NCBI RefSeq assembly: GCF_018069875.1
Contig: NZ_JAGQDF010000003.1
Coordinates: 62,001-126,000, forward strand
Direction of reading: 5' to 3'
DNA length: 64,000 nucleotides
DNA from: Ideonella alba
GTDB lineage: Bacteria > Pseudomonadota > Gammaproteobacteria > Burkholderiales > Burkholderiaceae_C
Shown here: piece by piece, positions 3,743 through 39,263 of the stretch
Numbering within the stretch: the first letter of the stretch is position 1
Layout of the letters: each line of letters begins with the position of its first letter
Position numbers and translations under genes: made by a program
The notes under the pieces: generated by a model
The model's database searches: none
What the model was told of the DNA's origin: nothing
The model's input: only the letters and a program-made list of their open reading frames with translations

Positions 3743-3919
3743 AGTAGATGCGAAGCTGGCAAGACACTGGCTGTGGCGCCGCCGGGTGTGCACTCTGCAC
3801 TCCCTCGATCGTGGGCGGCCCAGGCCGGCGCGCTGGCCCTGGATCTCAGGGTTCTGCCGGAGGTGCTGCCGGCAGCTGACGCGCCTACACTGCGGCCCAG
3901 AGCGCTTGGCGCTCCTTTT

Positions 3920-3946: not shown

Positions 3947-3997
3947 TCCGCCGACCCGGGCCAGCGAACCGGTGCGGCCCCTGCCCGAGACCCCGCC

Positions 3998-6280: not shown

Positions 6281-7038
6281 GTGTCTCGCGTGCCATGAGC
6301 GCCATGGGCGCGATGGGCGCTCTGGCCGGCCTGCTGCTCGCTGCCTCGGCCTGCGCGGCCGAGCCGGCGTGCCCGCCCGGCGCGCTGGGCACCGCCCGCG
6401 TGCTCACGCTGCCACGCGCCGCGGTCGCCTATGGCACGCTGCAGCACGAACCGCTGCCGCTGGCCGAGGGCGAGCTGGTGCTGAGCTTCGACGACGGTCC
6501 CGAGCCCGGCGCCACCGAGGCGGTGCTGTCCGCGCTGGCCGCGCAGTGCGTGCGCGCCAGCTTCCTGGTCACCGGCCAGCAGCTCGAGCGCGCCCCGGCA
6601 CTGGCCCGTCGCCTGCGCGACGAGGGCCACTCGGTGGGCCTGCACAGCCACGCCCACCAGCCGCCGGACACGCTCTCGCCCGCCGAGCAGCTGGCCGACC
6701 TGCGGCGCGCCCAGGCGCTGTTCGAGCAGGTCTATGGCCAGCCCGCGCGCTTCTGGCGCTACCCCTTCCTGGCCGAGACCGACACGCTGCGCGCCGCGCT
6801 GGCCGCCGAGCGCATCACCGTGCTGTCGGCCGACCTGGGCATCGAGGACTGGGTGCCGGCCGGATCGACCGAGGCCCTGGCCGCGCGCCTGACACAGGCG
6901 CTGGCCACGCAGCGCCGCGGCATCGTGCTGCTGCACGACGCCCAGCGGCAGACGGCCCAGGCGCTGCCGGCCCTGCTGGCGCTGCTGCAGCGCCAGGGCT
7001 TTCGCATCGTCCACCTGCGCTGGCAGGACGCGCCGTGA
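6265..7038 (+). CDS. secreted polysaccharide deacetylase family protein (NodB/CE4 fold)
   Basis: A 257-residue protein with an N-terminal signal peptide (RR near the start, hydrophobic stretch, cut near CAAEP). The NodB domain shows the metal-binding motif SFDDGP near residue 76, the second motif HSHAH, and RYPF. Such proteins remove acetyl groups from xylan, chitin oligomers or peptidoglycan. The context suggests removal of O-acetyl groups from hemicellulose, but this is inference. I used the ATG at 6265, which overlaps the end of the GH31 gene by 16 bases. An ATG at 6295 would give a shorter but still complete signal peptide. Its stop overlaps the GTG start of the GH9 gene by four bases. 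Confidence 0.82.
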   Translation: MVRRLSVSRAMSAMGAMGALAGLLLAASACAAEPACPPGALGTARVLTLPRAAVAYGTLQHEPLPLAEGELVLSFDDGPEPGATEAVLSALAAQCVRASFLVTGQQLERAPALARRLRDEGHSVGLHSHAHQPPDTLSPAEQLADLRRAQALFEQVYGQPARFWRYPFLAETDTLRAALAAERITVLSADLGIEDWVPAGSTEALAARLTQALATQRRGIVLLHDAQRQTAQALPALLALLQRQGFRIVHLRWQDAP

Positions 7039-8768: not shown

Positions 8769-10054
8769 GTGCGCCGCGCCGCCCGCTGCTGGCCTGGGTG
8801 CCCACGCTGTACCTGGCGATGGGCCTGCCCAATGTGATGGTGGGCGTGGTGGCGGCCATCGTCTACAAGAACCTGGGCGTCGACAACGAAACCATCGCGC
8901 TGGCCACCTCGCAGCTCTACCTGCCCTGGGTGCTCAAGCCGCTGTGGGCACCGCTGCTGGAGGCCTGGCGCAGCAAGCGCTGGTGGGTGATCTCGATGGA
9001 GTTCACGATGGCCGGCCTGCTGGGCCTGGTGGCGCTGAGCCTGCCGCTGGAGGGCTTCTTCCGGCTGTCCTTGTGGCTGTTCTGGATGATCGGCTTTGCC
9101 TCGGCCACGCAGGACACGGTGGCCGATGGCGTCTTCATGGGCACCGCCACGCCGCGCGAGCAGGCGCGCTACGCCGGCCTGCAGGGCATGTGCTGGAACC
9201 TGGGCGCGGTGCTGGGCTCGGGCCTGCTGGTGTCGCTGACCGGCTGGCTGCACGAGGCCCACGGCCTGCCCTGGGTGCAGTGCTGGATGCTGGTGATGGG
9301 CCTGGCCGGCACGCTGATGGCGCTGGCCGGGGTCTGGCACTGGCGCGTGTTGCCTGCGGGTGCGCTGGCGCCGCTGCAGGCGCGTGGCGCGGCCGATGCC
9401 TGGCGCGCGGTGCGCGAGGCCTGGGCCAGCTTCTTCGCCAAGCCGGCGATCTGGCCGATGCTGACGGTGGTCTTCTTCTACCGCTTCGGCGAGGGCTTCA
9501 TCGAGAAGTTCGGCCCGCTGTTCCTGCTGGACGCGCGCAGCGCCGGCGGCCTGGGCCTGGACAACGCCGCGCTGGGGACCCTGGCGGGCACGATCGGCAC
9601 GCTGGCCTTCATCGCCGGAGCCTTTGCCGGCGGCGCGGTGGTGGCCCGCTTCACGCTGCGGCGCAGCTTCCTGTGGCTGGCGCTGGCGCTGAACCTGCCG
9701 CACCTGACCTACTTCTGGCTCAGCCAGGCGATGCCCACCGAGATGGTGAGCATCGGCGCGCTGGTGGCGCTGGAGAAGTTCGGCTTCGGCATGGGCTCGG
9801 TGGGCCACATGCTCTACATGATGCAGCAGGTCTCGCCCGGGCCGTTTCGCATGGCCCACTACGCCATGGCCACCGGCGTGATGGCGATGACCAAGTGGGC
9901 CACCGGCACCGCCAGCGCGGCGCTGTGGGCCGCCTGCGGCCACGCCTATCCGCTGTTCTTCGGTGCCGTGCTGCTGCTGTCGGTGCCGCCGATCTGGCTG
10001 GCCTGGCGCGCCCCGTTCCCCCATGCCACCGAACCCGACGAGGCCGACCGATGA
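8765..10054 (+). CDS. AmpG-like major facilitator permease
   Basis: A 429-residue inner-membrane protein with about twelve hydrophobic segments. The N-terminal part (YLAMGLPN, the KPLWAPLLEAW loop, the SATQDTVADG segment) resembles AmpG, the muropeptide permease of the major facilitator superfamily. It lies between GH9 and GH39 genes with 4-base overlaps on both sides, so the sensible substrate here is a periplasmic plant oligosaccharide rather than anhydro-muropeptide. This would move xyloglucan or xylan fragments to the cytoplasmic GH31 and GH1 enzymes. The family call is firm; the substrate is inferred from context. Confidence 0.8.
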   Translation: MSAPRRPLLAWVPTLYLAMGLPNVMVGVVAAIVYKNLGVDNETIALATSQLYLPWVLKPLWAPLLEAWRSKRWWVISMEFTMAGLLGLVALSLPLEGFFRLSLWLFWMIGFASATQDTVADGVFMGTATPREQARYAGLQGMCWNLGAVLGSGLLVSLTGWLHEAHGLPWVQCWMLVMGLAGTLMALAGVWHWRVLPAGALAPLQARGAADAWRAVREAWASFFAKPAIWPMLTVVFFYRFGEGFIEKFGPLFLLDARSAGGLGLDNAALGTLAGTIGTLAFIAGAFAGGAVVARFTLRRSFLWLALALNLPHLTYFWLSQAMPTEMVSIGALVALEKFGFGMGSVGHMLYMMQQVSPGPFRMAHYAMATGVMAMTKWATGTASAALWAACGHAYPLFFGAVLLLSVPPIWLAWRAPFPHATEPDEADR

Positions 10055-11631
10055 CCCCACTGCTGGGCCGCGCGCTCCATGCCCTGCTGGCCCTGTTCGC
10101 GCTGGGCTCCACCAGTACGCTGGCTGCTGGCGCCGCCCCCGCCCAGCGCGTGCTCACCCTGGATGTGGCGCGCGCCGGTGCGCCGCTGGACCGCTTCTTC
10201 GACCTGGCCGTGGGCGCCGACTTCCCCGGCACCACCGGCCGGCCCGAGGCGCTGGCGCAGCTGAAGACCGCGGTGGACGAGCTGGGCTTTCGCTCGCTGC
10301 GCCTGCACGCCATCTTCCACGACGTGCTGGGCACGGTGAAGAAGGACGGCGAGCGACTGGTGTTCGACTTCAGCGGCATCGACCGCTTCTACGACGCGCT
10401 GCTGGCACGCGGCATCCAGCCCTATGTGGAGCTGGGCTTCACGCCGCAGGCGCTGGCCACCTCGGGGCTGAAGATCTTCCACTGGCAGGGCCTGACCTCG
10501 CACCCCGAGCCCGAGGGCTGGAAGCAGCTGGTCGAGGCCTTCGCGCGCCACCTGATCCAGCGCTATGGCGCCGAGCAGGTGCGCCAGTGGCACTTCGAGG
10601 TCTGGAACGAGCCCAACCTGGACGGCTTCTGGGAGCGTGCCGACCAGGCCGCCTACTTCCGCCTGTATGCCGACACCGCGCGCGTGCTCAAGCGCGTCGA
10701 CCCGGGCCTGCGCGTGGGCGGGCCGGGCACCGCCGGCGCCGACTGGGTCGTGCCCTTCCTGGCCTTCGTCTGGGCCGAGGGCGTGGCGGTGGACTTCGTC
10801 AGCACCCACACCTACGGCGTCGACGGCGGCTTCCTCGACGAATACGGCCAGGACGACAACCGCCTCTCGCGCTCGCCCGACAGCATCGTCGGCGATGTGC
10901 GGCGGGTGCGTGCGCAGATCGACGCCTCGGCCTTCCCCGGCCTGCCGCTGCACATCACCGAGTGGAGCACCAGCTACAACCCGCGCGACCCGGTGCACGA
11001 CCACTACATCGGCGCCGCCTATGTGCTGGAGAAGCTGCGCGCGGTGCGCGGCCTGGCGCAGGCGATGAGCTACTGGACCTACAGCGACCTCTTCGAGGAA
11101 GCCGGCCCGCCCCCCGCCACCTTCCATGGCGGCTTCGGCCTGATGACCCGCGAAGGCCTGCGCAAACCCGCCTGGTTCGCCTACCGCTACCTGCATGCGC
11201 TGCGCGGCCGCGAACTGCCGGCCGACGATGGCGCCACCTGGGCCGCGGTGGACGGCCGGCGACTCGCCGCCGTGGTCTGGGACTGGCGCCTGCCCGAACA
11301 GACCGACAGCAACCGCCCGCACTTCACCCGCCTGCACCCGGCGGTGCGCGCCGCCCCGGTGGCGCTGCGCGTCGAGGGCCTGGCGCCCGGCCGCTACCGC
11401 CTGCGGCTGCAGCGCACCGGCTTCGATGCCAACGACGCGCACAGCGCCTGGATCCGCCTGGGCAAGCCGGCCCAGCCCAGTGCGGCGCAGTTGCAGCGGC
11501 TGCGCGCGCTGACCACCGACCGGCCCGAGCGCGACCTCACCGTGCGCGTGGGCGCCGATGGCCGGCTGCGCTGGCGCTGGCCGATGCGCAGCCACGACGT
11601 GGTGCTGCTGACGCTGGAGCCGCTGCGTTGA
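10051..11631 (+). CDS. GH39 beta-xylosidase
   Basis: A 526-residue protein with a signal peptide (residues 1-26), so probably periplasmic. The TIM barrel shows the acid/base motif EVWNEPNLDGFW (Glu187) and the nucleophile motif HITEWSTSY (Glu304), both characteristic of GH39 retaining beta-xylosidases. A C-terminal beta-sandwich follows from about residue 400. It would release xylose from xylo-oligosaccharides. It is the last gene of the GH31 operon and ends seven bases before the converging galM gene, with no terminator in between. Confidence 0.92.
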   Translation: MTPLLGRALHALLALFALGSTSTLAAGAAPAQRVLTLDVARAGAPLDRFFDLAVGADFPGTTGRPEALAQLKTAVDELGFRSLRLHAIFHDVLGTVKKDGERLVFDFSGIDRFYDALLARGIQPYVELGFTPQALATSGLKIFHWQGLTSHPEPEGWKQLVEAFARHLIQRYGAEQVRQWHFEVWNEPNLDGFWERADQAAYFRLYADTARVLKRVDPGLRVGGPGTAGADWVVPFLAFVWAEGVAVDFVSTHTYGVDGGFLDEYGQDDNRLSRSPDSIVGDVRRVRAQIDASAFPGLPLHITEWSTSYNPRDPVHDHYIGAAYVLEKLRAVRGLAQAMSYWTYSDLFEEAGPPPATFHGGFGLMTREGLRKPAWFAYRYLHALRGRELPADDGATWAAVDGRRLAAVVWDWRLPEQTDSNRPHFTRLHPAVRAAPVALRVEGLAPGRYRLRLQRTGFDANDAHSAWIRLGKPAQPSAAQLQRLRALTTDRPERDLTVRVGADGRLRWRWPMRSHDVVLLTLEPLR

Positions 11632-11638: not shown

Positions 11639-12757
11639 TCAGCGCAGGCAACGCAGTCGATGCAGGGTGCGGCTGTGCCAGGTCTGGCCCGGACGCAGCA
11701 CGGTGGACGGAAAGTCCGGCCGGTTCGGCGCATCGGCCGGATGCTGGGTTTCCAGGCACAGCGCGTCGCCCGCACGCAGCAGGTCGCCATGGGTGCCGGC
11801 CAGGCGGCCGTCCAGCCAGTTCGCGCTGTAGACCTGCAGGCCAGGCTCGGTGGTCTCGACCTCCAGCACGCGGCCGCTGACAGGGTCCTCCAGCCGCGCA
11901 GCCAGCGCCAGACCCGGCGCGCTGCGGTCCACCCACAGGTAGTGGTCCAGGCCGCGGCCGTGCTGCAGTTGCGGGTGCACCGTGCGCAGCCGTGGGCCCA
12001 GTACCGCGCCGCCCCGGAAGTCCAGCGGCGTGCCATCGACCGGCGCGCTGTGCTGCGGGATGCCCTCGGCGTCGATCGGCAGGTAGCGGCTGGCCATCAG
12101 CGTGAGCCGGTGGCCGTCCACCGCACCGCAGCCGGCGAGGTTCCAGTAGGCGTGCTGGGTCAGGTTGAGCACCGTCGGCCGGTCGGTGTGCGCGCTGTAG
12201 TCGACGATCCAGCAGTCGTCGGGCGTCAGCGTGTAGCGCACCTCGACCGACAGCCGGCCTGGAAAGCCCTGGTCGCCGTCCGGGCTGTCCAGGCGCAGCA
12301 CCACCGCCACCGCGCCGTCGGGCGACCGGGGCCCGGGCGCCACCTGCCAGAAGCGTGCGCCAAAGCCCTGCGCGCCGCCATGCAGGCAGTGGCGGCTGCC
12401 GCCGCTGTCCAGGTCGACGCGGCGGCCGTCCAGCATGAAGCGGCTGTCGGCAATCCGGTTGGCATAGCGGCCCACCAGGCTGCCGAAAGTGGGGTTGTGG
12501 CGCAGCTGATCGTCGGGCGAGGCCAGCGCCAGCACGATGTTGTCGAAGTGACCGTGGCGGTCGGGCATGCGCAGCGCCACCACCGTGCCGCCCAGGTCCA
12601 GCAGCGTCAGCTGCAGCTGGCCCCCGGCGTCCAGCGTCCAGGCGGTGACCGGGCGTCCATCGGCCAGCCGCGCCCAGGGTGCGCTGCGCACGCCAGGCAC
12701 CTTGGCGGCCGGGTTCATCCGGGGAAATCCCGCTTCACTGACACCGTCCTTGTTCAT
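11639..12757 (-). CDS. galM: aldose 1-epimerase
   Basis: A mutarotase of up to 372 residues interconverting alpha and beta anomers of hexoses or xylose, useful where retaining and inverting glycosidases release different anomers. Family motifs seen are GRYANRIADSRF, the HGG-QGF segment, LTQHAYWNLAG and the base Glu in CLETQHP near the C-terminus. No signal peptide. The ATG at 12757 lies almost against the candidate ROK operator and has no Shine-Dalgarno. The in-frame ATG at 12718 (359 residues) would leave room for a promoter and fits the family N-terminus at least as well. Confidence 0.88.
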   Translation of the reverse strand: MNKDGVSEAGFPRMNPAAKVPGVRSAPWARLADGRPVTAWTLDAGGQLQLTLLDLGGTVVALRMPDRHGHFDNIVLALASPDDQLRHNPTFGSLVGRYANRIADSRFMLDGRRVDLDSGGSRHCLHGGAQGFGARFWQVAPGPRSPDGAVAVVLRLDSPDGDQGFPGRLSVEVRYTLTPDDCWIVDYSAHTDRPTVLNLTQHAYWNLAGCGAVDGHRLTLMASRYLPIDAEGIPQHSAPVDGTPLDFRGGAVLGPRLRTVHPQLQHGRGLDHYLWVDRSAPGLALAARLEDPVSGRVLEVETTEPGLQVYSANWLDGRLAGTHGDLLRAGDALCLETQHPADAPNRPDFPSTVLRPGQTWHSRTLHRLRCLR

Positions 12758-12760
12758 AAA

Positions 12761-12775
12761 GTTCGTTCGTCGAAC
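12761..12775. promoter_or_regulatory. candidate ROK-regulator (XylR) operator between galM and xylF
   Basis: GTTCG-TTCGT-CGAAC is an inverted repeat with 5-base arms and 5-base spacer. The same arms and spacer length occur at 39242-39256 inside the promoter of the ROK gene, and the three bases after the C of the right arm differ in only one position (AAA here, GAA there). It lies in the 74-base gap that holds the start signals of both galM and the xylFGH operon. Confidence 0.65.
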
Positions 12776-12831
12776 AAATTAGATCGCAGCATCGCAGGTC
12801 CGCGTCCTGCCGTCGATCCAGGAGACTCCCG

Positions 12832-13904
12832 ATGATCACCCCCCGACGCCACCTTCTCCGCGGCCTGGGTGCCGCCAGCCTGCTGGCGGGCCTGGGCCTG
12901 CGGGCACGGGCCCAGGACAAGGGCCTGGTGGGCATCTCCATGCCCACCAAGAGCGCCGCACGCTGGATCGCCGACGGCGAGCACATGCTCAAGGTCTTCA
13001 AGACCAAGGGCTACCGCGCCGACCTGCAGTTCGCCGACGACGACATCCCCAACCAGCTGGCGCAGATCGAGAACCTGGTCACCAAGGGCGCGCGCGTGCT
13101 GGTGATCGCACCGATCGACGGCAGCACGCTGGGCAACGTGCTGCGCAAGGCCGCCGAGCGCCAGATCAAGGTCATCGCCTACGACCGGCTGATCCGCGGC
13201 ACGCCGCATGTCGACGCCTATGCCACCTTCGACAACTTCCAGGTCGGCGTGATGCAGGGCCAGTCGATCATCGACCGCCTGGGCGTGGCGCAGGGCAAGG
13301 GGCCGTTCAACATCGAGCTCTTCGGTGGCTCGCCCGACGACAACAACGCCCAGGTCTTCTACGACGGCGCGATGAGTGTGCTCAAGCCACTCATCGACAG
13401 CGGTCGCCTGGTGGTGCGCAGCCGCCAGATGGGCATGGACAAGGTGGGCACGCTGCGCTGGGACGCCAGCGTGGCGCAGGCGCGCATGGACAACCTGCTG
13501 TCGGCGCACTACGGCAAGGAGCGCCTGCATGCGGTGCTCAGCCCCTACGACGGCCTGTCGATCGGCGTGCTCTCGTCGCTCAAGGGGGTGGGCTACTGCA
13601 CGCCGCGCCAGCCCTGCCCGGTAGTCACCGGCCAGGATGCCGAGCTGCCCTCGGTGAAGTCCATCATCCGCGGCGAGCAGGCCTCCACGGTGTTCAAGGA
13701 CACGCGCGAGCTGGCGCGGGTGGCGGCCGAACTGGCCGATGCGCTGCTGGCCGGCAAGGCGCCCGAGTTCAACGACCGCAAGACCTACCACAACGGGGTC
13801 AAGGTGGTGCCGGCGCAGCTGCTCAAGCCGGTGGCGGTGGACGCCGGTAACTGGCAGCAGGTGCTGGTCGCCAGCGGCTACTACCAGGCGGGCCAGCTGC
13901 GCTG

Positions 13905-13905
<1 letters not shown>
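12832..13905 (+). CDS. xylF: D-xylose ABC transporter, periplasmic binding protein
   Basis: A 357-residue protein of the type-1 periplasmic binding family closest to XylF: the mature part starts [15 protein letters not shown] and contains the ribose/xylose-type hinge segments AYDRLI and [12 protein letters not shown]. The N-terminus has twin arginines followed by LL and a hydrophobic stretch ending in ARAQD, so Tat export is possible, which would be unusual for XylF. AGGAG lies about nine bases before the ATG. It captures D-xylose for XylG/XylH and is the first gene of a four-gene operon (xylF-xylG-xylH-halogenase). Confidence 0.94.
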
Positions 13906-15428
<1,523 letters not shown>

Positions 15429-15429
15429 C

Positions 15430-16617
15430 ATGAACACCACCTCCATGGCGCCCGCCGCGCCCCCCGCCCCGGCCCTGCTGGCGCGCCTGCGCGAACACGG
15501 CCTGGTGCTGGCCCTGGTGGCCATCACCGGCCTGTTCCAGTGGCTCACCGACGGCACGCTGCTGCAGCCGCTGAACCTGACCAACCTGGTGCTGCAGAAC
15601 AGCTTCATCGTGGTGATGGCGCTGGGCATGCTGCTGGTCATCGTGGCCGGCCACATCGACCTGTCGGTGGGTTCGGTGTGCGGCTTCACCGGCGCGCTGG
15701 CGGCGGTGCTGATGGTGCAGCACGACTGGCCGGTGCTGCCGGCGGTGGCGGCCTGCCTGGCCGCCGGCGCGCTGATCGGCGCGCTGCAGGGCTGGTTCGT
15801 GGCCTACCTGGCGATCCCGTCCTTCATCGTCACGCTGGGGGGCATGCTGGTCTTCAAGGGCCTGGCGCTGGCGCTGCTGCAGGGCCAGTCGCTGGGGCCG
15901 TTCCCGGACGGCTTCCAGGCGCTGTCCACCGGCTTCCTGCCCGACCTGGGGGCGGACGACGAGGCCCCGCATGCGAGCACACTGGGGCTGGCCGTGCTGC
16001 TGGCCGTGGCGGCGGTGCTGCTGCCCTGGCGCCGTCGCGCGCAGCGCCTGCGCCATGGCATGGCGGTCGAGCCGCTGGCCACGCTGCTGCCGCGCCAGGC
16101 CGGGCTGCTGGCGGCGGTGCTGGGCGGGGGCTGGCTGATGGCCTCGTACAAGGGCGCCCCGCTGGTGCTGCTGCTCTTGCTGGTGCTGGTGGCGGTGTAC
16201 GAGCTGCTGGCCTCGCGCAGCGTGCTCGGGCGCCAGCTCTATGCGCTGGGCGGCAACGCCAAGGCGGCGCGGCTGTCGGGCATCCGCACCGAGCGCCTGG
16301 CCTTTGCCGCCTTCGTCAACATGGGCGTGCTGGCGGCGCTGGCCGGCCTGGTGTTCGCAGCGCGGCTCAACAGCGCCACGCCCAAGGCGGGCCTGGGCTT
16401 CGAGCTGGATGTGATCGCCGCCTGCTTCATTGGCGGGGCCTCGGCCTCGGGGGGCGTGGGGCGCATCGGCGGTGCGGTGATCGGCGCTTTCGTGATGGGC
16501 GTGATGAACAACGGCATGTCGATCCTGGGCATCGGCATCGACTACCAGCAGGTCATCAAGGGCGTGGTGCTGCTGGCCGCGGTCTGTGTGGATGCCCGCA
16601 ACCGGCACGGCGCATGA
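15430..16617 (+). CDS. xylH: D-xylose ABC transporter, permease subunit
   Basis: A 395-residue inner-membrane protein with about ten hydrophobic segments. It contains the sugar-permease motifs AGHIDLSVGSVCGF and ALGGNAKAARLSGI. The central part is longer and loop-rich (residues about 180-215), as in XylH compared with the shorter RbsC. It starts one base after the xylG stop and its own stop overlaps the start of the halogenase-family gene (ATGA). Confidence 0.95.
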   Translation: MNTTSMAPAAPPAPALLARLREHGLVLALVAITGLFQWLTDGTLLQPLNLTNLVLQNSFIVVMALGMLLVIVAGHIDLSVGSVCGFTGALAAVLMVQHDWPVLPAVAACLAAGALIGALQGWFVAYLAIPSFIVTLGGMLVFKGLALALLQGQSLGPFPDGFQALSTGFLPDLGADDEAPHASTLGLAVLLAVAAVLLPWRRRAQRLRHGMAVEPLATLLPRQAGLLAAVLGGGWLMASYKGAPLVLLLLLVLVAVYELLASRSVLGRQLYALGGNAKAARLSGIRTERLAFAAFVNMGVLAALAGLVFAARLNSATPKAGLGFELDVIAACFIGGASASGGVGRIGGAVIGAFVMGVMNNGMSILGIGIDYQQVIKGVVLLAAVCVDARNRHGA

Positions 16618-18131
16618 ATCCCACCGACAGCATCGTCATCGCCGGGGGCGGCGCCGCCGGCTGGATGGCCGCCGCCGCGCTGGCCACGGCGCGGCCGGGC
16701 CGGCCGCTGACGCTGGTGGAGTCGCCGGAGATCGGCATCATCGGTGTGGGCGAGGCCAGCTTCCCGTCGATCCGCGCCTTCAACCGCCTGCTGGGCATCG
16801 ACGAGGTCGACTTCCTGCGCGCCACCGGCGGCACCTTCAAGCTGGGCATCCGCTTCGACGACTGGCTGCAGCCCGGCCACCACTACTTCCACACCTTTGG
16901 CGATCTGGGCACGCTCGATGGCCCGATGGCGCTGTGGGCGCAGTACCTGCGCTTGCGCCATCGCCTGCCCGTCGGCCTGGCGCTGACCGACCTCAGCCTG
17001 CCCGGCGCGATGGCGCGCGGCGGCCAGTTCCTGCCGCCGCAGCCCGGCGCCGGCCTGGCCGGCCGCTACGATCACGCCTACCACTTTGATGCGCAGCGCT
17101 ATGCCAGCTTCCTGCAGGCGCTGGCGATCTCGCGCGGCGTGCAGCATGTGCAGGGCCGCATCGCCGGGGTGCAGCAAGCCGCCGACGGCCAGGTGCAGGC
17201 CCTGCGCCTGGACGATGGCCGTGCGCTGCACGCCAGCCTGTTCATCGACTGCACCGGCTTTGCCTCGCGCCTGCTGGGCCAGGCGATGGCCGTGCCCTTC
17301 CTGGACCAGAGCCACCTGCTGCCGGTGGACCGCGCCTGGGCGGTGCCCGCAGCGCGCAATGATGGTCCGCTGACGCCCTACACCACCGCCACGGCCATGG
17401 AGGCCGGCTGGACCTGGCGCATCCCGCTGCAGGAGCGCACCGGCCACGGCCATGTGTTCAGCAGCCGCCACATCGACGAGCAGCGTGCGCTGGCGCAGCT
17501 GCTGGCGCGGCTGGACGGCCCGCCGCTGGCCGAGCCGCGCCTGCTGCGCTTCACCACCGGCTACCGCGAGCGGCTGTGGGAGCGCAACGTGGTGGCGATC
17601 GGCCTGGCCGGCGGCTTCCTCGAGCCGCTGGAGTCCACCGCGATCTTCCTGGTGCAGTCGGGCATCGGCCACCTGGTGTCGCTGCTCGACCACCCGCAGC
17701 GCGAGCCGGCGCGTGCCGGCTACAACACCCTGATGCGGCGCCAGTACGAGCGCATCCGCGACTTCATCGTGCTGCACTACCGCCTGAGCCGCCGCCGCGA
17801 CAGCCGGCTGTGGCAGGAGATGGCCGCGATGGACCTGCCCGACACCCTGGCCCACAAGATCGACGCCTGGCGCGCCGCCGGCGTGCTGGCGGTCTACGAC
17901 CAGGAGGGCTTCGACGCCAACAGCTGGCTGGCCATCCACGCCGGCATGGAGCACTGGCCGCAGCGCGCGCTGCCCTGGCCGGCCGAGGTGCCCGAGGACA
18001 TCGCCGCCGAGCTGCTGCTGCAGCGCCGGCACGAGGTCGAGGCGCTGCTGGCGCGCATGCCGATGCACGAGGCGCTGCTGGCACAGGCCATGGCTCACAA
18101 GTCGTCGCAGGGCCGCCCCAAGACGACTTGA
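16614..18131 (+). CDS. tryptophan-halogenase family flavoprotein, last gene of the xylFGH operon
   Basis: A 505-residue protein without signal peptide. It has an N-terminal FAD site GGGAAGWM (residues 11-18), GVGEASFPS, a Lys in TFKLGI (Lys76) at the position of the catalytic lysine of PrnA-type halogenases, the family signature WTWRIP (267-272), and FLEPLEST with two conserved glutamates (337, 340). All hallmarks for hypohalous-acid chemistry are therefore present. The gene overlaps xylH by four bases, so it is co-transcribed with xylose import. Halogenases of this clade are known beside TonB receptors in Xanthomonas and Caulobacter-type loci, where their natural substrate is unknown. The last ten or so residues (KSSQGRPKTT) are encoded by an intergenic repeat element and are probably non-conserved. 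Confidence 0.85.
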   Translation: MNPTDSIVIAGGGAAGWMAAAALATARPGRPLTLVESPEIGIIGVGEASFPSIRAFNRLLGIDEVDFLRATGGTFKLGIRFDDWLQPGHHYFHTFGDLGTLDGPMALWAQYLRLRHRLPVGLALTDLSLPGAMARGGQFLPPQPGAGLAGRYDHAYHFDAQRYASFLQALAISRGVQHVQGRIAGVQQAADGQVQALRLDDGRALHASLFIDCTGFASRLLGQAMAVPFLDQSHLLPVDRAWAVPAARNDGPLTPYTTATAMEAGWTWRIPLQERTGHGHVFSSRHIDEQRALAQLLARLDGPPLAEPRLLRFTTGYRERLWERNVVAIGLAGGFLEPLESTAIFLVQSGIGHLVSLLDHPQREPARAGYNTLMRRQYERIRDFIVLHYRLSRRRDSRLWQEMAAMDLPDTLAHKIDAWRAAGVLAVYDQEGFDANSWLAIHAGMEHWPQRALPWPAEVPEDIAAELLLQRRHEVEALLARMPMHEALLAQAMAHKSSQGRPKTT

Positions 18132-18260
18132 CCCCCTCGGGGGGCGGGCTGGGCGCAGCCCGGGCCTGGGGGCGCTGGCAAGCTGTCGCAGGGCCGCCCC
18201 AGGACGACTTGATCCCCTCGGGGGGGGGCGGGCTGGGCGCAGCCCGGCCCTGGGGGCGCT
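18098..18260. repeat. two tandem copies of an about 80-bp palindromic intergenic repeat
   Basis: Copy 1 (18098-18176) and copy 2 (18179-18260) are nearly identical. Each begins with a CGCAGGGCCGCCCC block followed by GACGACTTGA, then a short C/G hairpin (CCCCTC-GGGG), then the hairpin GGGCTGGGCGCAGCCC, and ends GGGGGCGCT. The array fills the gap between the converging halogenase and GH43 genes. Copy 1 supplies the halogenase stop codon and copy 2 touches the GH43 stop, so the element may act as a bidirectional terminator. Confidence 0.85.
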
Positions 18261-19828
18261 CAGAGTGCGCGGTAGCGCAGCCTCCGGAACCGCAGCTCGC
18301 CCTCGCCCGCACTGAACAGCGCCAGACGCAGGCTGGTGAAGCCGCCGAAGACGTTGTGGTGCAGGCCCGAGACCTCCATCTGCCAGGGCAGCTGCTGCCA
18401 CTGCCGACCGTCCGCGGACCTGAACCAGGTCAGCACGTTGTCGCGGTTGAGCAGGCGCAGGTGCAGGCGCGGCGTGGTCAGCGGCTGGCGCATCCAGCGC
18501 TGTTCCTGGCCGTAGCCGTAGGTCAACAGCTCGCCGCCGCCCAGGCCGATGCCGGCATGGCCGCGCTCGTCGTAGAACAGCGCCAGCCCGCCGTGGGCGG
18601 CGCCGTGGGCCTCGACCTCGACCGTGACCTCGTAGCGGTGGTCACCCACCACGCAGCACAGGGGCGAGCAGTCGGCCAGCGCCTGGCCCTTGCCGCGCAG
18701 GCGCAGCTCGCCACCGCCCACCTGCACGCGCTGCGCCAACTCGCCGGGCGCGGCACCGTGCAGGCTCCACGGCAGGCCCAGCGTCGGGCGCTCGAAGTCG
18801 TCCGACAGCGCCAGGCCGGTGGGTCCGGCCTGGCCGCCGCGCGGCGCCGGCAGCGGACGCGACAGCGTGCCACCGCGGGCACGCAGCCAGCCGTCGCGCG
18901 TCCAGGCCACCGGCTCCAGCAGGGCCTGACGGCCCAGGGTGCGAAAGCCGTTTTCGTAGCCGTGGTAGACCATCCACCAGTCGCCCGCCGGGCCTTCGAC
19001 CAGGCTGGCGTGGCCGCGCGACCACCAGGGCTCATCGGCGCTGCGGGTGCGCACGATCGGGTTGTGCGGGCAGTGCTCCCAGGGCCCGTGCACCGAGCGT
19101 GAACGCGACAGCGTGACCATGTGGCTGGTCGGCGGACCGGCCGTGCCGCCCACCGCCGAGACCAGGTAGAACCAGCCGCCGTGGCGCAGCAGCTTGGGGC
19201 CCTCGGGGGCGAACATCTCGACCACCCAGTCCTCGGGGTAGCGCCAGGCTTCCCAGGCGCCCTCCTGCAGCGGGCCGTCGGTGCGCAGGCCGTCATCGCT
19301 CAGCCGCACGCGCCGCCCGCCATTGAGGAACAGGTAGCGCCGGCCGTCCTCGCCCACCACATGGCCGGGGTCGATGCAGCCGGGCAGGCCCAGGTCGATG
19401 GGTGCGCTCCAGGGGCCGCGGATGTCGTCGGCCCAGACCACGTAGACCGCGGTGCCCTGCGCCTGCAGCACCGGGATGTAGAGGAAGTAGCGGCCCTGGT
19501 GGCGCACCAGGTCCATCGCCCACACGGTGCCCGGCGGCTCGGGCAGGGCGGCGGTGATCGGCACCCAGTTGAACAGATCGCGCGAATGCCAGATCACCGC
19601 CCCCGGCGTGGCCGCGAAGGACGAGAAGCTCAGGTAGTAGTCGGCGCCGTCCTTCAGCACCGTCGGGTCGGCGTGGTCGCCGGGCACGATCGGGTTGAGG
19701 TAGCGGCCATCGCCCAGGTCGGCGCAGCGCTGGCCTTCGGGCCCGCGCCCGCGTGCCGCGGCGGCGCCGGCCGGCAGCGCGGCCCCGCCCAGGGCGGCGG
19801 TGAGCGCCTCACGTCGGGTCAGGGCCAT
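18260..19828 (-). CDS. GH43 beta-xylosidase/arabinofuranosidase with C-terminal beta-sandwich
   Basis: A 522-residue protein with a Tat-like signal (LTRREAL followed by a hydrophobic stretch, cut near residue 25). The five-bladed propeller shows the base Asp54 in HADPTVL, the Asp in WAMDLV and the acid Glu in PEGPKLL. A concanavalin-like C-terminal domain begins near residue 330, as in the XynB3-type beta-xylosidases. It would remove terminal xylose or arabinose from hemicellulose oligomers in the periplasm. It is the last gene of the long minus-strand block, two bases after the permease stop, and its own stop abuts the repeat array. Confidence 0.88.
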   Translation of the reverse strand: MALTRREALTAALGGAALPAGAAAARGRGPEGQRCADLGDGRYLNPIVPGDHADPTVLKDGADYYLSFSSFAATPGAVIWHSRDLFNWVPITAALPEPPGTVWAMDLVRHQGRYFLYIPVLQAQGTAVYVVWADDIRGPWSAPIDLGLPGCIDPGHVVGEDGRRYLFLNGGRRVRLSDDGLRTDGPLQEGAWEAWRYPEDWVVEMFAPEGPKLLRHGGWFYLVSAVGGTAGPPTSHMVTLSRSRSVHGPWEHCPHNPIVRTRSADEPWWSRGHASLVEGPAGDWWMVYHGYENGFRTLGRQALLEPVAWTRDGWLRARGGTLSRPLPAPRGGQAGPTGLALSDDFERPTLGLPWSLHGAAPGELAQRVQVGGGELRLRGKGQALADCSPLCCVVGDHRYEVTVEVEAHGAAHGGLALFYDERGHAGIGLGGGELLTYGYGQEQRWMRQPLTTPRLHLRLLNRDNVLTWFRSADGRQWQQLPWQMEVSGLHHNVFGGFTSLRLALFSAGEGELRFRRLRYRAL

Positions 19829-19830
19829 GC

Positions 19831-21240
19831 TCAGACCGCGCCGCGGCGCGCCTCCAGCAGGCCGCGGGTGCGCCCGGCGCCGGCCTCGTCGATCGGGAAG
19901 CGGGCGATCAGCACCAACGCGATCAGCAGGCCCAGCGCCGGGATGCCGCTGAGCAGCAGGCGGATCAGCGTGATCGCTTCCTCGCTCTGCACCGGCAGCT
20001 TGGCGTCAAAGCCGGTGAACTGCAGGATCCAGCCCGAGGCGCCATTGCCCAGGCCGATGCCCACCTTGCTGATCCAGGACTGGCAGGCGGCGAACGAGCC
20101 CTCGCGGCGCTGGCCGGTTTCCAGCTCGTCATGGTCGATCACGTCGGCCAGCGTGGAGCCGTACAGCGTCCAGAAGCCGGCGCCGGTGAAGGCCACGAAG
20201 CCGCAGGCCAGCAGCTGCAGCCACGGGTAGCGCGGGTCGTAGAGCCACCAGTCGCCGATGAAGGCGCACACCGCCAGCGCCAGCACCGCCATCAGCCCGA
20301 GGCGCTTGCCGTAGCGCCGCGCCAGCATGCCGAAGAAGGGGATGCCGGCGAAGCCGAAGGCCATGCCGGCCAGGCCCATGGCCGAGTTCCAGCGCGTGCC
20401 CAGCGCCACGTCGCCGCCGCAGACGTAGTAGAGCGTGGTGTAGTAGCCCAGCAGGCCGACCATCGCGGTGGCAATGCCATACGCCAGCATCATGCCCAGC
20501 AGCGAGCGGAAGGGCTTGTTCTGCAGCGTGCGGTACAGCGTGTCGCGCAGCGGCACCTTGGCCTGGCGCACCACCACGCTCTCGTAGTAGCGCTCGCGCA
20601 CCAGCAGGAAGATCGCCACCGACATGCCCACCATCACCGCACCCAGGATGCTGCAGTAGACCTGCGCGCCCAGCAGGATGTCGGGCTTGCCGTTGGCGTC
20701 GTTGAAGATCGACAGCGTGGTGAACTGGGCCGCCACGAACATCGTCAGCTCGGGCACCTTCTGGATCGCGTTCTTCACCTGCATGACGCTGGTGCGCTCG
20801 TGGTAGTCGGGCGTCATCTCGGTGCCCAGGCTGGTCCAGGGCATGTTGAAGCAGCTCATCACCGGCACGTAGACCAGCGTGGAGGCCAGCATGAAGATGA
20901 AGTACTGGGTGTCGCTCCAGCCGCGGCCCACCGCGAACATCAGCGGCAGGCCGATGCCCGCCAGCACGCCACCCACCAGGATGAAGGGGCGGCGCCGGCC
21001 ATGGCGGGTGCGGGTGTTGTCCGACAGCCAGCCGAACACCGCGTCCGAGGCGGCGTCGATGAAGATCTTGATCATCAGCGCCGTCGAGATCAGCCCCGGC
21101 GCCATGCCCAGGAAGACGTTGAAGACGTGGAAGGCCAGCGACTGGTAGAGCCAGTGGCCCCACAGGTCGACGAAGGCGCCCAGGCCGTAGCCCACCTTCT
21201 GGGGCATCGGAACGCGGTCGGCGGGGGCGGTGGTGCTCAT
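19831..21240 (-). CDS. GPH-family glycoside/pentoside:cation symporter
   Basis: A 469-residue inner-membrane protein with twelve hydrophobic segments. The motif GWLSDNTRTRHGRRRPFIL after the second segment identifies the glycoside-pentoside-hexuronide family (XynP, YicJ, MelB). In E. coli yicJ stands beside the alpha-xylosidase yicI, so isoprimeverose or other xylosides are likely cargo here too. It lies between the LacI regulator and GH43. Together with the AmpG-like permease it gives the locus two non-ABC inner-membrane routes. Confidence 0.9.
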   Translation of the reverse strand: MSTTAPADRVPMPQKVGYGLGAFVDLWGHWLYQSLAFHVFNVFLGMAPGLISTALMIKIFIDAASDAVFGWLSDNTRTRHGRRRPFILVGGVLAGIGLPLMFAVGRGWSDTQYFIFMLASTLVYVPVMSCFNMPWTSLGTEMTPDYHERTSVMQVKNAIQKVPELTMFVAAQFTTLSIFNDANGKPDILLGAQVYCSILGAVMVGMSVAIFLLVRERYYESVVVRQAKVPLRDTLYRTLQNKPFRSLLGMMLAYGIATAMVGLLGYYTTLYYVCGGDVALGTRWNSAMGLAGMAFGFAGIPFFGMLARRYGKRLGLMAVLALAVCAFIGDWWLYDPRYPWLQLLACGFVAFTGAGFWTLYGSTLADVIDHDELETGQRREGSFAACQSWISKVGIGLGNGASGWILQFTGFDAKLPVQSEEAITLIRLLLSGIPALGLLIALVLIARFPIDEAGAGRTRGLLEARRGAV

Positions 21241-21282
21241 CAGCGGTCTCTCGGGCAGGCCGGCGGCACCGCCGGCGCGGGG

Positions 21283-22377
21283 TCAGGGAATGGCCAGCGG
21301 CCCCGGTCGCACCGGGGCCAGGCTGGGTTGCAGGACGGTCTCGGTGGGCAGCACCTGCGAGGCGATCGGCTGCGGCGGCGCCAGGCCCAGCTTGGCGTCC
21401 ACGGCGGCGAGCAGCAGGCGCACCGCCAGGTGGCCCATCTCGCGCAGCGGCTGGTGCACCGTGGCCAGGCGGGCCGAGCGGGCCAGCAAGGTGTCATCGA
21501 ATCCCACCACCGACAGGTCGCGCGGCACCTGCAGGCCGCGCGCGCCCAGCACCTCGAAGCAGCCCAGCGCGACGGCGTCGCTGACGGCGAAGATGGCGTG
21601 CGGCACCTCGTCGCCGCGGTGGGCATCGAACCAGTCGGCGAGCTGGCGCCGGCTGGCCTCGGCACTGAAGCCGCCGCGCACCAGCAGGTCCTCGTCCAGC
21701 GGCACGCCGGCCTCGGCGTGGGCGCGGCGCCAGCCGGCGACACGCCGGTTGGCGCCGATCGAGTCGGCCGGGCCGGCCAGGTGCAGGATGCGGCGGTGAC
21801 CCAGGGCCAGCATCTGCCGCACCATCTCGAAGGCGCCGCGCTCTTCGTCGGACTCGATGTTGGGCACCCCCGGCAGCGCATGGTTGGCGTGTACCGAGAC
21901 CACCGGCGTGTGCTCGGGCAGGGCCTGGGCGTCATCCGGGCCCAGCAGCGGCGCCAGCAGGATCAGGCCGTCGATGCGGCCATCGCAGATCGAGGCCATG
22001 CGCCGCGCCACCTCGGGCCAGGTGTCGAAGGCGAAGACGGTGGTGTTCTGGCCCGCCGCCGCCGCGGCCTCGATGACGCCGTTGAACACTTCCAGGAAGT
22101 ACTGGTTCAGCTCGTTGCCCGACAGCGTGGTGGCCAGACCCAGCGTGTTCATGCGCCGCTCGGCCAGGCCGCGCGCGGTGGCGTTGGGTCGGTAGCGCAG
22201 TTGCTCGGCGGCCTCCAGGATGCGCTGGCGCGTCTCGTCGGAGATGCGCGAGGAGGTCTTGGCGCCATTGAGCACCGCCGACGCCGCCATCGCCGACACG
22301 CCGGCGGCGCGTCCCACGTCAGCCAGGGTGGCGGCGTGGCGGGCGCGGGTGCTGCGTTTGGCGGTGGGCTGCGTCAT
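21283..22377 (-). CDS. LacI family transcriptional regulator
   Basis: A 364-residue repressor. The N-terminal helix-turn-helix reads ATLADVGRAAGVSAMAAS and is followed by the hinge helix segment NATARGLAERR; residues 75-340 form a sugar-binding periplasmic-protein-like domain. It sits inside the glycosidase block between GH1 and the GPH permease. Two LacI-type palindromes with the same core (3932-3945, 36418-36429) lie upstream of the GH31 operon and of xylA, so it probably represses both and, through the second, its own expression. The inducer is probably a xyloglucan-derived di- or oligosaccharide (inference). Confidence 0.92.
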   Translation of the reverse strand: MTQPTAKRSTRARHAATLADVGRAAGVSAMAASAVLNGAKTSSRISDETRQRILEAAEQLRYRPNATARGLAERRMNTLGLATTLSGNELNQYFLEVFNGVIEAAAAAGQNTTVFAFDTWPEVARRMASICDGRIDGLILLAPLLGPDDAQALPEHTPVVSVHANHALPGVPNIESDEERGAFEMVRQMLALGHRRILHLAGPADSIGANRRVAGWRRAHAEAGVPLDEDLLVRGGFSAEASRRQLADWFDAHRGDEVPHAIFAVSDAVALGCFEVLGARGLQVPRDLSVVGFDDTLLARSARLATVHQPLREMGHLAVRLLLAAVDAKLGLAPPQPIASQVLPTETVLQPSLAPVRPGPLAIP

Positions 22378-22387
22378 GGCGATGGTC

Positions 22388-23743
22388 TCAGAGGATGCGT
22401 CGGTGTCGGATCACCTCGGCGTACCAGCGCGCCGAGAGCTTGGGCGTGCGCACCTGGGTCTCAAAGTCGCAATGGACGATGCCGAAGCGCCGCGCGTAGC
22501 CGTCCTCCCACTCGAAGTTGTCGATGAAGGACCACAGGAAGTAGCCGTCGATCGGCACCCCATCGGCCAGCGCGCGGTGCACCTCGCGGAGGTGGTTGCG
22601 CACGTAGTCACGCCGGTGCAGGTCGATCACCTCGCCACCCTCCACCGGCTCCGCATCGTAGCCGCAGCCGTTCTCGGTGATCAGGATCGAGCGGTGGCCA
22701 TACAGCTCGCGGCACATGCGCGGCGCCCAGTAGATGGCCTGTGGCACCAGGTTCAGCCAGGGGCTGTCGGCGCGCGGGTAGTTCGCCGGCAGCGACAGGG
22801 CCTCGGGCCGGCCATCGGCGCCGGCACGCACATAGGTGGCGGTGTAGATGTTCAGGCCCAGGTGGTCGGTGGGCAGGCTGATCAGGTCGAAGTCGCCCGG
22901 CTCGACATGCGGTGCCGCGTCGCCGACGCGGGCCAGGTACTCGGCCGAGTAGCCGCCGCCATGGATGGCCCCCAGGATGTGGGCGTTCTTCTGGACGAAC
23001 CAGGCGGTGGCGGCGGCGATGTCGGCGGGGGTCTCGGTCACCGGCACCGCCACGTCGCAGTTGTCGGTCAGGCCGACCTGGGCGTCGTCGCTGCCGTGCA
23101 GGCGCACCGCGCGCACCGCCAGGCCATGGGCCAGCAGCGCGTGGTGGATGGTCTGGTTGACCACCTGCTCGGGCTCGCGCCGGCCCGGCGCCTTGCTGCC
23201 CACGCCGTAGGCCAGCCAGGTGAAGCAGCGGATCTCGTTGAGCGTGATCCAGTGCCGCACCCAGGGCGACAGCGCCTTGACCACGGTGTCGGCGTAGTGG
23301 GCGAAGGCCTCGACGGTGCTGCGCACGGTCCAGCCGCCCTCGTCCTCCAGCGCCTGCGGCAGGTCCCAGTGGAACAGCGTGACCCAGGGGGTGATGCCGT
23401 GGCGGTGCAGGCTGGCCAGCAGGCGGCGGTAGAAGTCCAGGCCGGCTGGGTTGGGCTCACCGCGGCCCTGCGGGAAGATGCGCGGCCAGGCGATCGACAG
23501 CCGGTAGTGGCGGATGCCCATCGAGGCCATCAGCGCGAAGTCCTCGTCGAAGCGGTGGTAGTGGTCGCAGGCGGTGTCCAGCGTGTCGCCGTTGTGCACC
23601 GAGCCCGGCACGCGGGCGAAGCGGTCCCAGATCGACTCGCCCTTGCCGTCGGTGAAGGCGGCGCCCTCGATCTGCGCCGAGGCGGCGGCGACACCGAAGA
23701 CGAAATGGTCGGGGAAGGGGCTGGCGTAGGTCAGGGGGCTCAT
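22388..23743 (-). CDS. GH1 beta-glucosidase family enzyme
   Basis: A 451-residue protein of usual GH1 length without a signal peptide, so cytoplasmic. The nucleophile motif ITENG (Glu357) is intact. The acid/base motif normally read as TxNEP is TLNEI here (Glu170, Ile171): the catalytic Glu is kept but Pro is replaced. It would remove the glucose residues exposed after GH31 removes xylose, working down isoprimeverose or cellobiose units. It overlaps the upstream esterase gene by four bases. Confidence 0.9.
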   Translation of the reverse strand: MSPLTYASPFPDHFVFGVAAASAQIEGAAFTDGKGESIWDRFARVPGSVHNGDTLDTACDHYHRFDEDFALMASMGIRHYRLSIAWPRIFPQGRGEPNPAGLDFYRRLLASLHRHGITPWVTLFHWDLPQALEDEGGWTVRSTVEAFAHYADTVVKALSPWVRHWITLNEIRCFTWLAYGVGSKAPGRREPEQVVNQTIHHALLAHGLAVRAVRLHGSDDAQVGLTDNCDVAVPVTETPADIAAATAWFVQKNAHILGAIHGGGYSAEYLARVGDAAPHVEPGDFDLISLPTDHLGLNIYTATYVRAGADGRPEALSLPANYPRADSPWLNLVPQAIYWAPRMCRELYGHRSILITENGCGYDAEPVEGGEVIDLHRRDYVRNHLREVHRALADGVPIDGYFLWSFIDNFEWEDGYARRFGIVHCDFETQVRTPKLSARWYAEVIRHRRIL

Positions 23744-24465
23744 GGGCAGGATGCGTCCAGGGGGGCGGCCGCCAGCAGGCGGTCCAGGGTGGGATCGATC
23801 GCGTCGGCGAGCCGGTGGTAGCCGGCCTCGCTGAGATGCAGCTGGTCCGGCAGCAGCGCGGGGTCCAGCCAGTCGGCGGCGTCGGTCAGCGCTGCGCCGA
23901 CGTCGAGGAAGTGCACCCGCTGGCCGTCGGCCAGTGCGCGCAGCCGGGTGTTGACCGCCTCGTTGAGCTGGCGCAGCGGCGCCTCCGGCGCGTGCTCGCG
24001 CGGCAGCAGGGCCAGCAGCAGCACGCGGCTGGCGGGCAGGCGACGCTGCAGCTCATCGAGCAGGCGCCAGACGCCGGCTGCGGTGCGCGCCGGCGGCGCC
24101 TGCAGGTCGCCGCTGTCGTTGGTGCCGATCAGCAGCACCAGCAGCCGCGGCGCCAGGTTGTCTAGTGCGCCATGCTGCAGCCGCCACAGCAGGTGCTCGG
24201 TGCGGTCGCCCCAGCAGCCCATGGCCAGCGCCGGCCGCGCGGCGTAGCGGGCCTGCCAGACCGGCTGGCCCACATCGTCCCAGCCGTGGGTGATCGAGTC
24301 GCCCAGGAAGACCAGCTGCGGTGCCTGGCCGGCCGCCCGCATGGCCTGGGCCTGCGCGCGCAGCGCGGCATGGCGCGCGGTCCACCAGGGCAGCGCCTCG
24401 GGCTTGTCCAGCGGCACCGGGGCCGGCAGCTCGGCCAGCTCGGGCGGGGGTGGCGGCAGGCTCAT
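23740..24465 (-). CDS. SGNH/GDSL hydrolase, cytoplasmic paralogue
   Basis: A 241-residue hydrolase without signal peptide. The SGNH blocks are FLGDSITHGW (Ser57), the glycine block near YAARPALAMGCWGD, GTNDSGD, and DQLHLSEAGY with the Asp-x-x-His pair. It is clearly related to the C-terminal half of its upstream neighbour (same motifs, same spacing), suggesting an old tandem duplication with loss of the export signal and accessory domain. Likely an acetylesterase acting on imported, acetylated oligosaccharides. Overlaps both neighbours by four bases. Confidence 0.83.
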   Translation of the reverse strand: MSLPPPPPELAELPAPVPLDKPEALPWWTARHAALRAQAQAMRAAGQAPQLVFLGDSITHGWDDVGQPVWQARYAARPALAMGCWGDRTEHLLWRLQHGALDNLAPRLLVLLIGTNDSGDLQAPPARTAAGVWRLLDELQRRLPASRVLLLALLPREHAPEAPLRQLNEAVNTRLRALADGQRVHFLDVGAALTDAADWLDPALLPDQLHLSEAGYHRLADAIDPTLDRLLAAAPLDASCP

Positions 24466-39235: not shown

Positions 39236-39263
39236 ACTATAGTTCGATCGTCGAACGAATCAA
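39236..39263 (-). promoter_or_regulatory. promoter of xylR-xylB-xylA with operator in the spacer
   Basis: On the minus strand TTGATT (39263-39258) and TATAGT (39241-39236) are 16 bases apart. The spacer contains GTTCG-N5-CGAAC (39242-39256), the same inverted repeat as at 12761-12775. The start of transcription would be about 33 bases before the xylR ATG. Because ACTATAGT is itself palindromic, a TATAGT also exists on the plus strand toward the divergent halogenase gene. Confidence 0.7.

Follow-up and report, generated by a model that had tools for sequence, protein, structure and literature searches.

A BrvH/Xcc4156-type halogenase homologue in a sugar transporter operon of Ideonella alba, and its relatives in TonB-receptor glycan loci

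We describe a flavin-dependent halogenase homologue, HAL, encoded in a 64,000-nucleotide stretch of the Ideonella alba genome (contig NZ_JAGQDF010000003.1, positions 62,001 to 126,000, forward strand), the whole of which is referred to here as the window. Sequence comparison and a structural model place HAL with the BrvH/Xcc4156-type halogenases and not with those that act on free tryptophan. HAL is an ordinary kind of enzyme, and it is informative through its genomic context: members of its family accompany diverse glycan loci with TonB receptors, and HAL appears to be the copy that belongs to the xyloglucan locus. On balance, we consider it somewhat more likely than not that HAL is a cytosolic two-component halogenase of the xylose/xyloglucan regulon, with a substrate that is common to receptor-mediated glycan uptake. 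The observations behind this reading are the gene itself, its motifs, predicted fold and clade, the counts of linkage between halogenases and receptors, and a shared operator-like sequence.

Results

The HAL gene and its halogenase group

16614..18131, plus strand: HAL, flavin-dependent halogenase homologue of the BrvH/Xcc4156 group, 505 aa, with Lys76 and Glu340 present; assigned from motifs and from sequence and fold matches

HAL is a single intact open reading frame that begins with the ATG at 16614 and is matched over its full length by PF04820 (523 bits, cut-off 21). It has the FAD motif GxGxxG at residues 11-16 (GGGAAGW, 11-17), the catalytic-type Lys76, the WxWxIP motif as WTWRIP (266-271), and FLEPLEST (335-342), which includes Glu340. 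The glutamate is known as a catalytic residue from work on PrnA and BrvH. GxGxxG, the catalytic Lys and WxWxIP are the halogenase motifs named in PMC5945002, which is also the basis for regarding the Lys as catalytic, because BrvH activity is lost when Lys83, the equivalent of Lys76, is changed. Among 161 homologous domains, drawn from the fetched loci with overlapping loci not thinned, Lys76 is conserved in 159, Glu340 in 160, and the two Trp residues of WxWxIP in 161 and 158; both Lys76 and Glu340 are invariant in a 37-row alignment. Because inspection by eye revealed no signal peptide, HAL is probably cytosolic. An AlphaFold2 model (pLDDT 91.6, pTM 0.90) has the halogenase fold, with TM scores of 0.91-0.92 to the nearest solved halogenases. 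The 3′ end of the gene enters a duplicated sequence (18105-18223). Its two copies are 81 bases apart, and a genome search that allowed three mismatches revealed no others. This duplication supplies the C-terminal residues of HAL, which have no counterpart in the relatives compared.

Against solved proteins, the HAL sequence scores 373 bits with BrvH (6frl), 373 with a Pseudoalteromonas enzyme (9luq) and 364-365 with Xcc4156 (6y1w); scores are lower for AbeH (286), PyrH (282) and PrnA (251), the last being about 120 bits below BrvH. The structural matches of the model are TM 0.91/0.94 for BrvH (41% identity over the alignment), 0.92/0.92-0.94 for Xcc4156 (42% identity) and 0.92/0.95 for 9luq, with rmsd values of 1.8-2.2 for these three versus 2.9-3.7 for PyrH, PrnA and RebH. 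Thus neither sequence nor fold makes the free-tryptophan enzymes (PrnA/RebH/PyrH) the closest relatives of HAL. The Gly of the Fx.Px.Sx.G motif is Ala343 in HAL, a deviation like that of the BrvH/Xcc group; at this position the 161 homologues have Ser (82), Ala (66), Gly (6), Asn (5) or another residue (2). BrvH and two Xanthomonas enzymes are noted as exceptions to the Gly held by most known halogenases in PMC7336383, where Xcc4156 and BrvH are described as having an open substrate site with a solvent-accessible Lys, and where BrvH and three Xanthomonas enzymes are said to have unknown native substrates. BrvH and the Xcc enzymes are grouped apart from the tryptophan enzymes in PMC8269204, which lists for Xcc4156 the short motifs ATIPSL and HSFGH; these read ASFPSI and HTFGD in HAL. 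BrvH brominates indole at low activity, refuses tryptophan and prefers bromide (PMC5945002).

An initial annotation of the window had credited HAL with every diagnostic residue of tryptophan-type halogenases. GGGAAGW, Lys76, WTWRIP and FLEPLEST are indeed in place; however, the motif Gly is Ala343 and the closest group is a non-tryptophan one. That annotation was right in pointing to the bromide-preferring BrvH and Xanthomonas group as the nearest characterised enzymes, and the phylogeny contains no placement of HAL with monooxygenases that lack the Lys.

Linkage of halogenases with TonB receptors

Homologous genes were compared in 80 named loci kept from 252 candidates, with flanks of up to about 8 kb on each side, in which the receptor was sought with a profile of our own and Cupin_8 and SapC with single-sequence profiles. 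A receptor is present in 70 of the 80 loci, at least two halogenases in 45, Cupin_8 in 25 and SapC in 11; at least four of the ten loci without a receptor are short contigs. When this genome (G000) is counted together with four family members, a TIGR01782 receptor lies within 10 kb of 31 of the 39 halogenases, although only about 2-5% of each genome is that near to one. In the other direction, a halogenase is found within 10 kb of all five TIGR01782 receptors of this genome, and of 24 of the 39 over the five genomes. For six further genomes, which were reached via candidate loci and are not a random draw, the count is 43 of 50 halogenases within 10 kb of such a receptor versus about 5.3 expected. 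Several 'tryptophan halogenase' genes are common in Proteobacteria, and matches of this type number 2 to 19 in each of these six genomes. The association of related genes with sugar loci that have TonB receptors, which the initial annotation had put forward, is borne out.

With respect to the literature, PMC11337851 discusses, in its available portion, phage and Colwellia halogenase transcripts and not glycan loci, and the word halogenase is absent from the main text of a paper on Shewanella sugars (PMC2996990). Since the search covered subscription journals poorly, we do not claim that a link between halogenases and TonB glycan loci is unpublished. Work on Xanthomonas GlcNAc loci reportedly mentions such halogenase genes.

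Eight halogenase genes in six sugar loci

The genome holds eight full PF04820 genes, distributed over six sugar loci (a ninth row, at 24.5 bits, is not counted):

Window xyloglucan locus: HAL and a second homologue, HAL2
L010: one halogenase, with two alpha-amylase-family genes and a glucokinase
L011: one halogenase, in a GH1/ABC/GH30 locus
L012: one halogenase, in a GH32 locus
L013: two halogenases, with SapC, Cupin_8, LacI and a solute-binding protein
L014: one halogenase, in a NagA/GH3 locus (NagA confirmed by model)

The context is therefore not peculiar to hemicellulose, as copies also accompany alpha-glucan, GH32, GlcNAc and GH1/GH30 loci. The suggestion that HAL represents an undescribed system of its own is not supported. 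A TIGR01782 receptor is present in five of the six loci. The exception is L012, in which the best NCBIfam match of the receptor (L012:3476-6016) is a siderophore type at 94 bits, below the cut-off; because this receptor does not belong to TIGR01782, the halogenase link is not confined to one receptor family. In L013 (7029-14958, G000:C31) a receptor, a halogenase, SapC, Cupin_8 and the second halogenase form one run with short gaps or overlaps, the partner proteins matching PF07277 at 202 bits and PF13621 at 218 bits.

These loci bear on two alternatives. In the first, which takes up the idea of the initial annotation, HAL would halogenate or hydroxylate plant aromatics brought in along with hemicellulose, such as ferulate, coumarate or aryl glucosides; its role would be detoxification or signalling. 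HAL's locus has xylan/xyloglucan-type hydrolases, two GDSL-type hydrolases and a GH1, and its orthologues in L134, L135 and L137 lie right behind a GH1 that could free aglycones. However, the family also occurs by the alpha-amylase, GH32 and NagA loci of this genome, in which plant phenolics are not to be expected, and it is found next to receptors across several bacterial classes; moreover, no aromatic-ring degradation gene was recognised among the scanned locus genes, for which no dedicated models were used. We regard this alternative as unlikely: with members at alpha-glucan, GH32 and GlcNAc loci, the family would hardly have a hemicellulose phenolic as its general substrate, and because it accompanies TonB-receptor loci of many kinds, a substrate common to receptor-type uptake is the likelier one. 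The second alternative is that HAL is a secondary-metabolite halogenase located here by chance and unrelated to sugar uptake. The family founders PrnA, RebH and PyrH serve natural-product clusters; yet there is no biosynthetic gene among the scanned neighbours of HAL, the eight genome copies all lie with sugar genes, and the linkage is to glycan-type receptors, which together make a chance location very improbable.

The transporter operon and the surrounding locus

HAL is the last of four co-directional genes, the first three of which encode a sugar transporter:

12832..13905, plus strand: ChvE-type sugar-binding protein (NF040907, 515.5 bits, cut-off 460)
13905..15428, plus strand: GguA-type sugar ABC ATPase (best NCBIfam match NF040905, 743 bits, under the cut-off of 810)
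15430..16617, plus strand: GguB-type sugar ABC permease (NF040906, 532 bits, cut-off 450); its stop overlaps the HAL start

The 4-base overlap between the permease gene and HAL is the ATGA at 16614-16617. Both the position of HAL as fourth gene of an operon and its overlap with the permease gene had been described correctly, but the operon had been taken for a xylFGH xylose transporter. The binding protein scores 198.5 bits against XylF (cut-off 389.55) and the ATPase 518 against XylG (cut-off 723.65); because the NCBIfam scores place the operon with ChvE-GguA-GguB, the transporter is probably ChvE-GguAB-like and, as the named families suggest, would take up multiple monosaccharides. The gguB-HAL junction was found in none of the 29 relatives' gguB loci examined (31 relatives matched; flanks were at most 1.5 kb and some were ended by the contig). 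One strand of L011 carries, in this order, genes for a receptor, a GH1, a binding protein, two permeases (one by similarity only), an ATPase, a halogenase and a GH30, so that a halogenase lies directly behind ABC transporter genes twice in this genome.

The initial annotation was silent on HAL2 and on the xyloglucan/xylose locus around both halogenases:

3998..11631, plus strand: GH31, polysaccharide deacetylase, GH9, MFS and GH39
11639..12718, minus strand: aldose 1-epimerase, divergent from chvE (start codon uncertain, 12718 or 12757)
18260..31970, minus strand: GH43, MFS, LacI, GH1, two GDSL-type hydrolases, GH95, BNR-repeat protein and GH35/42-type protein
32005..35010, minus strand: TonB-dependent receptor (TIGR01782, 639 bits, cut-off 310)
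35081..36400, minus strand: xylose isomerase XylA (TIGR02630, 670 bits, cut-off 533)
36450..37979, minus strand: xylulokinase XylB (TIGR01312, 566 bits, cut-off 380)
37976..39196, minus strand: ROK-family regulator (PF00480, 175 bits)
39340..40848, plus strand: second halogenase homologue HAL2, 48-49% identical to HAL

This hemicellulose locus extends from about 4 to 41 kb of the window and is bordered by genes for PEP carboxykinase and a GGDEF protein. Its gene set appears to fit xyloglucan breakdown, the BNR-repeat protein being presumably of GH74 type. The proposed connection with xylose and hemicellulose thus holds in part: XylA and XylB are encoded in the locus, and an XylF-type protein occurs in the orthologue loci L139 and L140, whereas the idea of a hemicellulose-released substrate is weakened by the loci with alpha-amylase/glucokinase, GH32 and NagA.

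A candidate operator

Two sites in the window share an operator-like sequence:

12761..12775, plus strand: candidate operator GTTCGTTCGTCGAAC, in the chvE promoter region
39242..39256, plus strand: candidate operator GTTCGATCGTCGAAC, between the ROK regulator and HAL2

Both are versions of a 15-base palindrome-like sequence, GTTCG(T/A)TCGTCGAAC. A 23-base version built from the two sites matches the genome without mismatch only at those two, with one further site at three mismatches. Allowing up to three mismatches, the 15-base core has seven matches in the window, two of them exact, versus 3.5 expected. We infer that the ROK protein binds the candidate operator, which presumably resembles the sites of ROK xylose repressors. 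A sigma-70 scan of 12600-18400 found no separate promoter for HAL; since only 0.1 would be expected, this result is uninformative.

Orthologues of HAL

The best match of HAL in 15 other genomes of the genus is only 48% identical. Relatives at 57-62% identity were found in six of 398 other family genomes (limit E 1e-130, passed by 13 of 399 with its own genome included), and also in Roseateles caseinilyticus and in Pelomonas sp. Root1444, the latter probably overlapping the six. HAL and eight relatives form a clade with support 1.0. Which genes are nearest to this clade is weakly resolved (0.24), whereas support is 0.95 for a 29-tip clade to which HAL2 and sphingomonad genes belong. In the 30-tip clade around HAL and HAL2, homologues of the window's xylan/xyloglucan genes occur in 9 of 16 named loci versus 6 of 64 outside it (Fisher p 1.4e-4, a value that is too small because the loci are related and the flanks short). 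The xylA, xylB and ROK genes gave no match in the 80 named loci.

The orthologues differ in their neighbours. A receptor gene immediately precedes the HAL orthologue in L037, L038, L139 and L140; in L134, L135 and L137 the orthologue is behind a GH1 gene and accompanied by a second halogenase; and in L136 there is neither receptor nor GH1 beside it, and a GH2-type gene instead. L134, L135 and L137 are galactoside-type loci, with the tandem halogenases behind GH1 and a PfkB kinase and with LacI, MFS and an alpha-galactosidase-type gene. On the same strand in L139 and L140, GH9 and an XylF-type binding protein follow (401 and 407 bits, cut-off 389.55), the remainder of the transporter being a GguB-like permease under the cut-off and a short ABC ATPase. 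Between the halogenase-GH9 pair and this transporter, L140 has a 1255-aa protein (3183-6950) with Ig/PKD, MauG-like di-haem peroxidase and cytochrome c domains, which by its domains would be another redox protein in a receptor-halogenase locus. Upstream of the receptor in three of these loci (L037:3180-4541, L139:4332-5723, L140:13871-15244) is a Gly-rich lipoprotein-like family of about 460 aa, which is perhaps a surface glycan-binding partner; its L139 copy had no Pfam match. Two relatives have a closer gguB, separated from the HAL orthologue by about 13 kb in G170 and by about 30 kb in G157. Identity to the window receptor is 40-44% for the receptors beside the orthologues in L037, L038, L139 and L140, versus 60-71% for those of the xylA-xylB-ROK-halogenase loci L141, L142 and L144. 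It therefore seems, from these identities, that HAL has lost its former receptor or uses that of HAL2.

It could be asked whether HAL is dead or repurposed, either a relic or a monooxygenase that does not halogenate and has travelled with the locus. The place behind gguB was seen in this genome only (none of the 29 relatives), the last residues of HAL run into the local duplication, and the low activity that BrvH shows on indole (PMC5945002) allows for another natural reaction in the group. Against this, the Lys, the Glu, the FAD motif and WxWxIP are intact, and both the gene overlap and the operator-like site are kept. Relaxed selection is also unsupported, as the distance from HAL to the root of its clade (0.435) is the second shortest of nine (range 0.369-0.681). 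We judge a relic or repurposed enzyme to be improbable.

Discussion

If HAL is a halogenase of the xylose/xyloglucan regulon, it would be translated by coupling to gguB and expressed with the regulon via the operator in common with the ROK gene and HAL2. A general flavin reductase would supply FADH2, which with O2 and halide would yield HOX, bromide being preferred by analogy. HOX would pass to Lys76 and from there react with an aromatic substrate; the active site would be open, and Glu340 would assist the reaction. This chemistry is argued from the conserved Lys, Glu and predicted fold. The substrate would probably be something shared by receptor-mediated glycan uptake, for instance a small aromatic signal or an aromatic residue in a polypeptide that is exported, and not a hemicellulose phenolic.

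A number of results weigh against this reading. The TIGR01782 receptor nearest to HAL is 14 kb off, and hence none lies within 10 kb. The two GDSL-type hydrolases in the locus make acyl, and even aromatic, side groups conceivable. The operator pattern was derived from the same two sites that it finds, and in eight relatives it gave 17 sites at up to three mismatches versus 10 for a reversed control pattern. Five of the 17 precede a halogenase gene (one each in G318, G045, G170, G157 and G240), three (two from G157 and one from G240) fall between GH74-like genes and runs of lipoprotein, receptor and halogenase genes, and the other nine are elsewhere, with none before a halogenase in G001, G009 and G251; the total is therefore near background, but the placement, with 8 of 17 before halogenase or receptor-halogenase gene runs, is not and speaks for the regulon. 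In the six further genomes, 31 of the 102 TIGR01782 receptors are within 10 kb of a halogenase and 71 are not, so that a halogenase is mostly near a receptor while most receptors do without a halogenase. Among receptors, no near-invariant Trp is specific to those linked with halogenases, the best being W897 (68% versus 21%). Finally, in 19 loci with a LacI gene, the halogenase-LacI correlation (r 0.83) is almost as high as those for halogenase-receptor and receptor-LacI (0.88 each).

Related to our reading, and overlapping with it, is the possibility that the receptor, or some other protein bound for export, is a target of HAL, which would modify it beforehand and be joined at other loci by Cupin_8 and SapC proteins. 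Relatives of Cupin_8 hydroxylate proteins. A polypeptide substrate is attractive because of the Cupin_8 and SapC partners, which recur with further halogenases at the frequencies given above and are matched by PF13621 and PF07277 at L013, and because of the open active site of Xcc4156 and BrvH (PMC7336383). The frequencies also count against it, since by single-sequence profiles most of the 80 loci have no Cupin_8 and no SapC, as do the many receptors that have no halogenase nearby. The simplest form of the idea, with the receptor as the substrate, was rejected: when 104 linked and 28 unlinked receptors were aligned (94 and 11 in a first pass; sequences not thinned for relatedness), no near-invariant aromatic was limited to the linked ones. 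Covariation between halogenase and receptor is strong (r 0.81 over 61 pairs and 0.90-0.93 within three bacterial groups, with all 1000 permutations lower in each), but as proof of contact it was likewise rejected, because LacI nearly equals it; the covariation therefore reflects co-inheritance and not contact. Overall, we consider modification of an exported protein a serious but doubtful candidate.

In a broader and still tentative form, proteobacterial TonB glycan import might include an uncharacterised oxidative modification module. It would consist of flavin halogenases, accompanied at some loci by a Cupin_8 oxygenase and SapC, and would act by halogenation or hydroxylation on either a dedicated signal or a polypeptide that is exported. 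Each such glycan locus would have its own halogenase copy or copies, and the xyloglucan copy would have moved into an inner-membrane transporter operon while staying in the regulon. Should the substrate prove to be an envelope protein, bacteria would have a type of protein modification that is new. Test substrates are only weakly converted by the characterised relatives, whose native substrates are not known; the counts reported here tie the group to glycan receptors. With two halogenases behind one predicted operator, the window is a tractable case for sugar induction and deletion phenotypes.

Comparison with known systems

HAL shares its family (PF04820), its fold (TM about 0.88) and the catalytic Lys with PrnA, RebH and PyrH, which differ from the HAL group in their 30-34% identity to HAL and rmsd of 2.9-3.7. 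It is closer to BrvH of Brevundimonas BAL3 (6frl), with which it has in common GxGxxG, the catalytic Lys, WxWxIP and the exception to the motif Gly; indole bromination has been demonstrated for BrvH, whereas HAL is known here from its sequence and model. Xcc4156 of Xanthomonas campestris B100 (6y1w) has a close fold, and its native substrate is not known either (PMC7336383). In five Xanthomonas loci (L091, L106, L109, L113 and L114, whose halogenases are not established as Xcc4156 orthologues) the order is receptor, SapC, Cupin_8 and halogenase, while HAL lies behind an ABC transporter.

The operon resembles the ChvE-GguAB multiple-sugar transporter, two of the three subunits being above the NCBIfam equivalog cut-offs; the difference is the halogenase as fourth gene, which none of the 29 relatives' gguB loci has. 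At the level of the locus, there is a parallel with the CUT loci of Xanthomonas (carbohydrate utilisation with TonB receptors), which combine receptor, inner-membrane transporter, regulator and hydrolases as is seen here (PMC1790865). The main text of that paper contains no word beginning with halogen-, so that the halogenase is a part of the locus that it does not discuss.

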